Notes: a model not told the origin generated them from the sequence alone. Shown: positions 55,665-58,775, counted from the first letter of the stretch. The stretch is DNA of 64,000 bases from Roseateles oligotrophus (GCF_014204525.1 NZ_JACHLP010000006.1:166360-230359), one strand, 5' to 3'. Translations and numbers: made by a program.

Positions 55665-57713
55665 CTACAGCTGGAATACTTCAACCGGCGCCTCGCGCCC
55701 GCGCACATGGACCTCGCCCAGGCTTTCGCAGGGGCGGCTCAGCGGCCAGTGGCTGGAATCTTTGGCGATGGCGGTCTGGGTGCTGGCACCGATCAGGATG
55801 CCAGCGCCGCGCTCGGCGCACAGGGCTTGCAGGCGGGCGGCGAGGTTGACGGCGTCGCCCAGCACCGTGTAGGCGCGGCGTTGGCGCGAGCCCAGATCGC
55901 CCACCACCATATGGCCGGTGTTGATGCCGATGCTGATGGCCAGGCGGGGCCAGCCGCGGGCGGCGAAGCGCAGGTTCAGCTCGCTCAGGCGTTCATGCAT
56001 GGCCAGGGCCGCCTCCACGGCGTGGCGGGCGTGCTGGGCGTCGGCCAGGGGGGCGCCCCAGAAGGCCATCACCGCGTCGCCCATGAATTTGTCCAGCGTG
56101 CCGCGATGGCGGCCGATGACGCCGGCCATCGCCGTGAAGTATTCATTCATCAGCTCGGCCAGCTCGCTGGGCTTGAGGTGTTCGGACAAGCCGGTAAAGC
56201 CTTTGACGTCGACGAACATGACGGTCAGCTGGGCGCTGCGGCTGGCCATGGTGTAGCGCTCGGGGCTGCGGCTCATCTCCTCGACCAGGGCGGGGGGCAG
56301 GTAGTGGCCGAACAAGCGCGTCAGTTGCCGGCGCGCACCGCGGGCGCCGAAGTTGGCGATGACCAGTTGCAAGGTGGCCATGCCCGCCAGCAGGCACAAG
56401 GGTCCGGCCAGGGGCCAGGCCTCGTGCCAGCCTTGCCAGGCCCAGAGATTGAGCGCCAGCAGGCCCAGCAACAGGCCGGCCAGCAGGGCCGCGCTTTGCG
56501 CCAGGCTCATGCGCGGCGAGGCCAGCAGCAGGGGCAGGCCGATCAGCAGCAGCAAGGCCACTTCCATCAGGGGCGCATGGTCGGGCGTGTGGGCCAGGCG
56601 GCCGTCCAGGATGCCGCTGAGCATGCTGGCATGCACGGCCACGCCAGCGTAGGAGGGTTGCAAGGGCGTGGCGCGCTGGTCCAGCAGGCCGGGTGCGCTG
56701 CTGCCCAGCAGCACGATGCGGCCGCGCAGGGCGTCCGGTGGCAGGCGGCCGGCCAGCACATCGGCGGCGGAGTAGTGCGCGTAGTCGCCGCTGGCGGCGC
56801 GGAAGGGGATCAGGGCCGCACCCTCGGCGTCGCTGCGCAGGGCCAGGGGGCCGCGCGGCGTGTTGAGTTGCAGGCCCAGCCAGTGGCCGTCTGCGGCGTA
56901 CAGGGCTTGCATGGGGGGCTGCATGCTGCTGGTGCCCAGCAGGGTCTGGGCCAGCACCAGGGGCAGGGAGGCGTAGACGCCACCGTCCTGGCGCGCCAGC
57001 AGCAGGCTGCGGCGGGTGATGCCGTCTTCGTCCGCCACCGCGTTCAGAAAGCCGGCTTGGCCGGCGGCGGCCTGCAGCCGGGCCAGGTTGCCGCCATGGC
57101 CTTCCCAGCCGGGCAGGGCCTGCAGGGCGGGGCTGGAGGCGGCCATGGCCGGGGCGGGCAGGGCGGCGCTGCGGGCGGAGTCGCTGCCGGCCGAGAAATA
57201 AAAGCCCAGCACCACCGGATGCGCTTGCATCACCTGGGCCAGGCGACCGTCTTCGTCCAGCTTGGGGCGCAGCAGGGCGAGCTGATCGGCGAAGGCGGCG
57301 TTGGCGCGCAAGGGGCCGGCCTCCAGGCGTTCGAGCGCCAGCAGGCCGGAGCTTTCGTCGGCCTCGGCCAGGATCAGGTCCAGGCCCAGCAGCAGGGCGC
57401 CCTGGTCCTTGAAGCTGGTCTCGATCAGCTCGGCGATCAGGCCGCGGCGCCAGGGCCAGCGCCCATGCTCGGCCAGGGCGCGCTCGTCGATGTCGACGAT
57501 GACGATGCGCGGGTCGGGCTTGGTGGGCGCCAGCAGGGCCAGGCGGGCGTCGTAGAGGTAACGGTCCAGTGCCTGTACCGGCGCCAGCGTCAGGTAGTGG
57601 GTGGCATGCGCCAGCAGCAGCAGCAGCAGGGCGCTGCCGCCCAGCCAGCGCAGCCAGGCCAGGACTTTGTAGGATCGGCTGCGCGCCTTGTTAGCGGAGC
57701 TTGATTTCGACAC
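55665..57713 (-). CDS. CHASE2-domain adenylate/guanylate cyclase (class III)
   Basis: A 682-residue membrane cyclase. An N-terminal helix (WLRWLGGSALLLLLLAHAT) leads to a periplasmic CHASE2 sensor (about 40-370, with IVIVDIDERALAEHGRWPW and GRIVLLGSSAPGLLDQRATP). Three helices follow (MEVALLLLIGLPLLLA, LLAGLLLGLLALNLWAW, PLCLLAGMATLQLVI). The cytoplasmic class III cyclase has metal aspartates in FVDVKGFTGLSE and KFMGDAVMAFWG, and the transition-state Asn/Arg segment VLGDAVNLAARLQ. The site looks active. The GTG at 57713 was preferred; it overlaps the ompA-like gene by 23 bp. It is last in a FecR-OmpA-cyclase operon. Confidence 0.9.
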   Translation of the reverse strand: MSKSSSANKARSRSYKVLAWLRWLGGSALLLLLLAHATHYLTLAPVQALDRYLYDARLALLAPTKPDPRIVIVDIDERALAEHGRWPWRRGLIAELIETSFKDQGALLLGLDLILAEADESSGLLALERLEAGPLRANAAFADQLALLRPKLDEDGRLAQVMQAHPVVLGFYFSAGSDSARSAALPAPAMAASSPALQALPGWEGHGGNLARLQAAAGQAGFLNAVADEDGITRRSLLLARQDGGVYASLPLVLAQTLLGTSSMQPPMQALYAADGHWLGLQLNTPRGPLALRSDAEGAALIPFRAASGDYAHYSAADVLAGRLPPDALRGRIVLLGSSAPGLLDQRATPLQPSYAGVAVHASMLSGILDGRLAHTPDHAPLMEVALLLLIGLPLLLASPRMSLAQSAALLAGLLLGLLALNLWAWQGWHEAWPLAGPLCLLAGMATLQLVIANFGARGARRQLTRLFGHYLPPALVEEMSRSPERYTMASRSAQLTVMFVDVKGFTGLSEHLKPSELAELMNEYFTAMAGVIGRHRGTLDKFMGDAVMAFWGAPLADAQHARHAVEAALAMHERLSELNLRFAARGWPRLAISIGINTGHMVVGDLGSRQRRAYTVLGDAVNLAARLQALCAERGAGILIGASTQTAIAKDSSHWPLSRPCESLGEVHVRGREAPVEVFQL

Positions 57714-58305
57714 GTCGGTTGCGCGCCTCGGCCACCTCATCGGCGGTGGCCACCAGGGGCTCGCGCTCGCCGCGGCCGACCACGGTGATCTTTTCGCGCG
57801 GGATGCCTTGGCGCACCAGCAACTCGCGCACCGTTTCGGCACGCACCAGGGAGAGCTTGTCGTTGGCCTCCAAGCTGCCGACCCGGTCGGTGTGGCCGAT
57901 GACGACCAGCTCGCCGCCCTGGAGCGCCGTCAGGGCCTCGCGCACCAGGGCCACGATGGGCGCGGTCTCCACCGTCAGCTCGTTGGAGTTGCTGCTGAAG
58001 TTAACGACAAAACTGCGCGGCTTGGCGGGCTGCATGGCGAGCAGGCTGCCGTACTCTTTTTGCACCGTCTCGGCATTGCTCTGGCCGGGCTTGAGTTCAC
58101 CGGCCGTGCCCGCATCCACCTGGGCATAGCTTTGGTCCAGGCGCAGGCTGGCGCCGGTCTTGGACTGCACCGTCACCACGCCGCTGGGGCTGCCATCGGC
58201 CTTGGGCAGGAGGATCACCCGCTCGCGCGGGGTCTGGCAGCCCAGCAGGCCCAGCAGCAGGGCCGCGGCCAGGGCGGACTTGAGAGAAAAGGTCAAGGCG
58301 GGCAT
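57691..58305 (-). CDS. OmpA-family lipoprotein (peptidoglycan-binding)
   Basis: A 204-residue outer-membrane-type lipoprotein. The signal ends at the lipobox LLGC near residue 23. A short middle region (RERVILLPKADGSPSG and later) leads to an OmpA C-terminal domain from about residue 95. That domain has NFSSNSNELT, VVIGHTDRVGSLEANDKLSLVRA (the Asp and Arg that grip diaminopimelate) and GRGEREPLVATADEVAEARNRRV. It would tie the membrane to peptidoglycan. Its ATG overlaps the FecR stop by one base (TGATG), and its own end overlaps the cyclase gene. Confidence 0.9.
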   Translation of the reverse strand: MPALTFSLKSALAAALLLGLLGCQTPRERVILLPKADGSPSGVVTVQSKTGASLRLDQSYAQVDAGTAGELKPGQSNAETVQKEYGSLLAMQPAKPRSFVVNFSSNSNELTVETAPIVALVREALTALQGGELVVIGHTDRVGSLEANDKLSLVRAETVRELLVRQGIPREKITVVGRGEREPLVATADEVAEARNRRVEIKLR

Positions 58306-58775
58306 CAGCTCTCGTCTCCGGGGGCGTCGATGATGAATTCGGTACCGCGCACGCCCAGCACCACGCTGCGGGCCTTGAACGTTACCTTGTCGGGCGCCTT
58401 TTTGGTGATCAGGCCGCTGACCACGTGCAGGCTGCCGTGCGCGAGGGTGGCGTTCATACCGCCCTCGTGGGTGGTGGGGTTGAAGCTGAAGGCGCTCAGC
58501 AGCAGGCTGCTGTTAGGCCCGGCGGTCAGCAAGGTGTCGTCGTTGAGCGTGAGCCCGGCCGCGCCGTCGGCGCCGGTGCGCAGGCGGTCGCCCTGCTGCA
58601 GCACCATGCCCACCTGCACGGGCAGGGTCTGGCCGGCACGGTCCAGGCTGACCTGGCCGCTGAGGCGTTTGACACGGCCTATGCCTTCGTCGGCCTGGGC
58701 CACACCGCAGGCCAGCAAGGCCAGGGCGCAGGCGGCCAGGCCACGGGCAAAAAATGGCGTATTGAAATTTTTCAT
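58305..58775 (-). CDS. Exported FecR-domain protein
   Basis: A 156-residue periplasmic protein. A signal peptide (GLAACALALLACGVAQA) is followed by a FecR domain with GRVKRLSGQVSLDRAGQTL, GMVLQQGDRLRTGADGAAGLTLND and VTFKARSVVLGVRGTEFIID. VRGTEF is the hallmark of the family. Here FecR has no anti-sigma helix-turn-helix or sigma factor beside it. This form occurs as a secreted domain of unknown ligand. It is the first gene of the FecR-OmpA-cyclase operon. Confidence 0.9.
   Translation of the reverse strand: MKNFNTPFFARGLAACALALLACGVAQADEGIGRVKRLSGQVSLDRAGQTLPVQVGMVLQQGDRLRTGADGAAGLTLNDDTLLTAGPNSSLLLSAFSFNPTTHEGGMNATLAHGSLHVVSGLITKKAPDKVTFKARSVVLGVRGTEFIIDAPGDES

Follow-up and report, generated by a model that had tools for sequence, protein, structure and literature searches.

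The window, a 64,000-nucleotide stretch of Roseateles oligotrophus DNA (NZ_JACHLP010000006.1:166360-230359), contains an operon of fecR-like, ompA-like and CHASE2-cyclase genes, all on the minus strand and reading from 58775 to 55665. The features of the operon are as follows (coordinates in the window):

58305..58775, minus strand: fecR-like gene, encoding an exported 156-aa protein with a signal peptide and a single FecR domain (Pfam FecR)
57691..58305, minus strand: ompA-like gene, encoding a 204-aa lipoprotein (lipobox LLGC, Cys23) with an RVILLPxxDG N-terminal segment and a C-terminal OmpA domain (Pfam OmpA)
55665..57713, minus strand: gene for a predicted CHASE2-class III adenylate cyclase of 682 aa (Pfam CHASE2 and Guanylate_cyc; AF2 model; catalytic residues)
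57691..57740, minus strand: overlap of the ompA-like and cyclase genes, 23 bp from a GTG start at 57713 or 50 bp from an in-frame ATG at 57740

The fecR-like and ompA-like genes meet in a TGATG junction with an overlap of 1 bp, and the ompA-like gene overlaps that of the cyclase by 23 bp if the GTG start is used. The in-frame ATG is a second candidate for the start of the cyclase. The VSKSSSA sequence at its N-terminus is dictated by the overlapping OmpA C-terminus (RRVEIKLR), and the conservation of this stretch is therefore uninformative on the true start. Scans for promoters and terminators at the operon gave no signal above chance. Coordinates, Pfam matches and alignment confirm the description given in an earlier note on this DNA, comprising three genes, the TGATG junction, the 23-bp overlap, the domains and intact cyclase residues.

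The cyclase protein matches both Pfam CHASE2 (E 1.2e-53, 182.8 bits) and Guanylate_cyc (E 6.9e-23, 81.6 bits) above cut-off, and thereby joins a CHASE2 ectodomain to a cyclase domain of class III. An N-terminal transmembrane helix is followed by the CHASE2 ectodomain (aa 40-393), three transmembrane helices and the cyclase domain (aa 491-675). The AF2 model, a single chain like that of the FecR protein discussed below, has a mean pLDDT of 89 and presents one N-terminal helix of membrane-spanning length, a large ectodomain, three more long helices and the cyclase. A Foldseek search with the whole model listed structures of the cyclase domain alone and is thus uninformative on CHASE2, for which a PDB sequence search found no structure. 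Across 32 homologues there is no variation at D502 and D546 (metals), at K542 and D620 (purine specificity) or at N623 and R627, which provide the metal-binding Asp pair, the Lys/Asp specificity pair and the transition-state Asn/Arg of a class III adenylate cyclase. A Lys/Asp pair denotes ATP-type (adenylate cyclase) specificity in class III cyclases. With K542/D620 forming such a pair, cAMP is the expected product, and the window enzyme is predicted to be an adenylate cyclase. The same pair rules out a guanylate cyclase; cGMP, which the earlier note had listed as a possible product, is not supported by residues that predict ATP use. The window gene lies outside the ordinary CHASE2 cyclase operon of Burkholderiales (STPK-PP2C-FHA-cyclase-phosphodiesterase), which holds most of its 40-45% relatives. 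In that conserved operon (for example L055:1567-8726), two CHASE2 receptors of different output occur together, the order being a CHASE2 Ser/Thr kinase, a PP2C phosphatase, an FHA protein, a CHASE2 adenylate cyclase, a metallo-beta-lactamase-fold (phosphodiesterase-like) protein and GAF-containing kinases.

The FecR protein matches Pfam FecR with E 1.2e-7 (32.5 bits against a cut-off of 24), and Pfam shows no other domain in its 156 residues. A FecI-type anti-sigma factor, as in FecIRA surface signalling, was rejected, as the protein has a signal peptide and FecR alone in Pfam, with no cytoplasmic anti-sigma domain. Its orthologues from 10 triplets were aligned, and the AF2 model (mean pLDDT 84, above 90 in the FecR part) was compared with solved structures. 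The closest, and the sole convincing one, is 5ix9, the domain by which an antifreeze adhesin is anchored at the cell surface and a retention domain of the LapA/MpAFP type (profile E 3.6e-11 and 4.7e-6; Foldseek E 1.6e-3, TM 0.75 on the target). The window FecR also has a match, below cut-off, to the NCBIfam LapA retention model. The retention-type fold would fit a periplasmic docking role, as judged from profiles and model, and leaves little appeal to the view of FecR as an (iron-)signal relay. The same likeness allows for a different role, in which FecR and OmpA form an anchoring pair under CHASE2 control.

The OmpA protein (Pfam OmpA, E 2.9e-18) has Gln at +2 of its lipobox cysteine, and the Asp/Arg pair that binds peptidoglycan through diaminopimelate (D140 and R155) is invariant in 18 members from across the phylum; lipobox and Asp/Arg pair together identify a peptidoglycan-binding lipoprotein. 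The OmpA partners form one subfamily, with a common N-terminal segment, roughly V-I-L-L-P-x-x-D-G, before the OmpA domain. A profile of this subfamily run on 299 genomes gave 21 full-length matches (129-234 bits), separated by a clear gap from matches confined to the OmpA domain (at most 117 bits). Ten of the 21 are loci that had served as profile seeds, and for the other 11 a FecR neighbour was not a criterion. FecR adjoins all 11 of these, and CHASE2 is also present at five. Four of the six loci lacking CHASE2 lie near contig ends.

Within the genus, Roseateles koreensis has the same three-gene set at the same chromosomal site, with a cyclase 72% identical to that of the window. A close copy of the cyclase occurs in 4 of 18 Roseateles genomes (the window's own included), making the set accessory in the genus. 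The genome of the window encodes one CHASE2 gene, three class III cyclase domains, 13 FecR domains and 14 cNMP-binding domains, counting domains above cut-off, and CRP-like proteins are among the last.

Searches with single FecR or OmpA sequences reached the triplet only close to home, and iterated profiles were needed for a view of the phylum. Profiles from the closest cyclases located the triplet in two more genera of the family and in bins assigned to Rubrivivax and to Zoogloeaceae, one each. In related triplets the FecR/OmpA overlap is 1 or 4 bp in 10 of 10 cases, and the 23-bp OmpA/cyclase overlap recurs in 7 of 10. The repetition of gene order and overlaps in other genera places the arrangement beyond chance. 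Among the fetched loci, 26 distinct FecR-OmpA-CHASE2 sets, each with its own CHASE2 protein, were found across proteobacteria, in varied flanks and orientations that include convergent and divergent ones. Conservation of the triplet beyond close relatives, on which the earlier note had staked its proposal, therefore holds.

We also compared FecR and CHASE2 positions across 55 genomes, hand-picked from those with matches in the phylum-wide CHASE2 search and thus not independent. Among the matches listed for these genomes, a FecR gene lies within 5 kb of 49 of 94 CHASE2 genes, as compared with 0.75 expected from FecR density (approximately sixty-fold), and is upstream on the same strand in 37 of the 49. 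Among the matches listed, roughly every second CHASE2 gene sampled lacks a FecR gene within 5 kb, and FecR-OmpA pairs occur with no nearby CHASE2 at three loci (L245, L294 and L301), so that neither part strictly requires the other. CHASE2 is the usual, though perhaps not the sole, reader of FecR-OmpA. At one of these loci (L294:6974-13627), the FecR-OmpA pair belongs to the same subfamily and lies downstream of genes for a GGDEF-EAL protein and a hybrid histidine kinase, either of which may be another reader.

The output domain of the 26 sets was found to vary: it is a cyclase in 16, HD-GYP in 4, a histidine kinase in 3 and a SpoIIE phosphatase in 3. A CHASE2 tree with 101 rows needs 6 changes to account for the FecR+OmpA label, as compared with 23.3 for shuffled labels, and none of 500 shuffles was as low. 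One fully supported CHASE2 clade, in which every member has FecR and OmpA, holds both kinase and HD-GYP outputs. Three genomes carry two sets each, with differing outputs. For two sets of the same output in different genomes (L254 and L255), the identities of FecR, OmpA and CHASE2 are 69, 55 and 60%, while two sets of one genome (L254 and L297) share 40, 41 and 33%. In the two-set genomes, FecR, OmpA and CHASE2 thus track each other and not the host genome, a comparison that controls for species history and not for plain co-inheritance of the operon. The distance matrices of the three proteins correlate at 0.85-0.91, part of which is accounted for by the co-inheritance of a tight operon. The core of the earlier note's proposal, a functional link of FecR and OmpA to the CHASE2 receptor, gains strong comparative support from the phylum-wide triplet, the exchangeable outputs and the matched inheritance.

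Other front ends combine FecR with CHASE2 in different ways. FecR fused to LysM is found beside CHASE2 with kinase or GGDEF outputs, and FecR also occurs beside CHASE2 together with TPR proteins that match the SlipAM surface-lipoprotein family. The common theme, as far as domain content indicates, is a FecR protein, a partner predicted to be tied to the wall or outer membrane, and CHASE2. At L237:3465-9265, the gene directly before a CHASE2 cyclase encodes a protein of 1,273 aa, possibly an NsrA-like receptor, that combines FecR with TPR repeats and a TonB-receptor-like C-terminus. Several Oxalobacteraceae loci (including L104:7845-17765 and L087:1-10244) carry a CHASE2 adenylate cyclase, an Omp85/TpsB-like protein, a giant secreted protein and FecR on one strand.

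The closest parallel in layout among known systems is YfiBNR (TpbB) of Pseudomonas aeruginosa, whose single operon likewise encodes a lipoprotein that is OmpA-like and binds peptidoglycan, a small protein of the periplasm and a nucleotide cyclase that sits in the inner membrane and has a periplasmic domain (PMC3375315, PMC4655355, PMC4887326). There, YfiB is anchored in the outer membrane and bound to peptidoglycan, and it frees the inner-membrane cyclase YfiN by drawing away the repressor YfiR (PMC3375315, PMC4655355). The window operon instead has FecR in place of YfiR, CHASE2 in place of the YfiN PAS domain and a class III cyclase in place of GGDEF. In Pfam, its FecR matches FecR alone and not the YfiR family (DUF4154/PF13689), and its output is Guanylate_cyc and not GGDEF, while its OmpA scores 69.5 bits on the NCBIfam YfiB model (cut-off 128). 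By this analogy, the likeness to Yfi would be one of working manner and not of descent.

Clusters of FecR with CHASE2 have been described in two settings. A CHASE2-adenylate cyclase cluster of Campylobacterota also includes a FecR-domain protein, but lacks OmpA and contains genes for a cAMP phosphodiesterase and a TPR protein (PMC9239204); with the profiles used, no phosphodiesterase or TPR gene was detected in the vicinity of the window set. The BiofilmReg operon of Burkholderia contaminans also places a secreted FecR protein with a peptidoglycan-binding domain beside a CHASE2 receptor (PMC5192318). In that operon, however, the FecR protein carries a fused LysM domain, a histidine kinase and a response regulator form the output, and an OmpA lipoprotein is missing, whereas Pfam finds no LysM in the window FecR and a cyclase as output. 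While these narrower clusters are already known (PMC9239204, PMC5192318), the OmpA triplet with exchangeable outputs may be new: neither the triplet nor its output exchange was found described in the open-access literature searched.

Two further systems bear on CHASE2 cyclases. In Sinorhizobium meliloti, the outer-membrane protein NsrA, with a barrel at residues 600-1200 (PMC7529298), is required for signalling through the CHASE2 adenylate cyclases CyaK, CyaD1 and CyaD2 to cAMP (PMC7529298, PMC13001267), which is a precedent for the module proposed here. NsrA is a beta-barrel receptor for external signals, in contrast to the OmpA lipoprotein of the window; the barrel-type FecR protein at L237 invites comparison with it. 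In Magnetospirillum gryphiswaldense, the exported protein MtxA is also encoded just before a CHASE2 adenylate cyclase (PMC4439547). It was described as having no homologues, and its deletion gave no clear phenotype (PMC4439547). The N-terminal part of MtxA (PDB 4z29) matches the window FecR with E 0.04-0.06, below significance, and two other profiles did not recover MtxA. It differs in having Ig-like and TPR domains after the FecR-like part, and its solved residues (after 141) lie outside the matching part.

Taken together, the three genes very probably form one functional module. FecR is probably a direct partner of CHASE2, as gene order and matched inheritance suggest, and the reading we prefer, on balance, is a tripartite envelope-sensing module with cAMP as its output. 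In such a module, OmpA would sit in the outer membrane and grip peptidoglycan, and the small FecR would shuttle between, or bridge, OmpA and the CHASE2 ectodomain, taking the part of YfiR with CHASE2 in that of the YfiN ectodomain. CHASE2 may restrain the cyclase at rest, a view supported by CyaD1, which makes cAMP constitutively when CHASE2 is missing (PMC5498481). A changed state of the wall or outer membrane would alter FecR-CHASE2 binding, the cyclase would make cAMP, and one of the CRP-like proteins of the genome could then read it. The logic would be that of YfiB-YfiR-YfiN, with a different messenger and with no relation to Yfi in the periplasmic and inner-membrane parts. That OmpA sequesters FecR in the Yfi manner is conceivable but rather doubtful; FecR may equally well be an activator presented by OmpA, as the sign is not readable from sequence.

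The main rival makes FecR and OmpA the effector: a pair anchored to wall or surface, whose deployment is regulated while CHASE2 senses something else. This agrees with the resemblance of the FecR fold to the LapA/MpAFP module that retains adhesins in the outer membrane (5ix9), with the Oxalobacteraceae CHASE2 cyclases that neighbour Omp85/TpsB-like transporters, giant secreted proteins and FecR, and with the existence of FecR-OmpA pairs apart from CHASE2. We consider it unlikely, as regulated cargo would not be expected to stay in an overlapping operon with the receptor over many lineages while the output changes. Moreover, the window FecR has no adhesin part, and the three-way matching takes in the CHASE2 ectodomain.

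It is also rather improbable that the proteins serve the same process without contact, with OmpA and FecR modifying or reinforcing the envelope and CHASE2 reading a small molecule such as a wall fragment. Conserved operons often group functions in this way, and a general CHASE2 ligand is not described in the open-access papers found; however, specific contact accounts better than a shared process for the matching of paralogous sets in one genome, and FecR is the immediate upstream neighbour of CHASE2 in 37 of 49 cases among the matches listed. Neighbourhood by chance or shared transcription alone, for which the patchy occurrence in the genus (4 of 18) and the single site kept in Roseateles might speak, is very hard to reconcile with recurrence across the phylum in varied flanks and orientations and with FecR at 11 of 11 OmpA and, among the matches listed, 49 of 94 CHASE2 genes.

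The preferred reading of a tripartite envelope sensor has consequences for CHASE2 signalling at large. The conserved FecR-OmpA partner pair offers a direct hypothesis for the CHASE2 stimulus, and the natural input-output swaps offer a means to test it. If true, the cAMP, HD-GYP and SpoIIE systems would join the tripartite sensors that connect outer membrane to cytoplasm, for which YfiBNR is the worked example. We tentatively extend this to the suggestion, for which the odds are somewhat short of even, that CHASE2 domains are largely receptors for FecR-type periplasmic proteins and not for small molecules. FecR with an envelope anchor (an OmpA lipoprotein, LysM or a TPR/beta-barrel protein) would then be their general input, and cAMP, c-di-GMP turnover, a phosphatase or a kinase the output. 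Should this be so, the stimulus of CHASE2 would be explained and a new class of trans-envelope module established. The same front end, coupled to different outputs across proteobacteria, is a candidate for a widespread signalling device.
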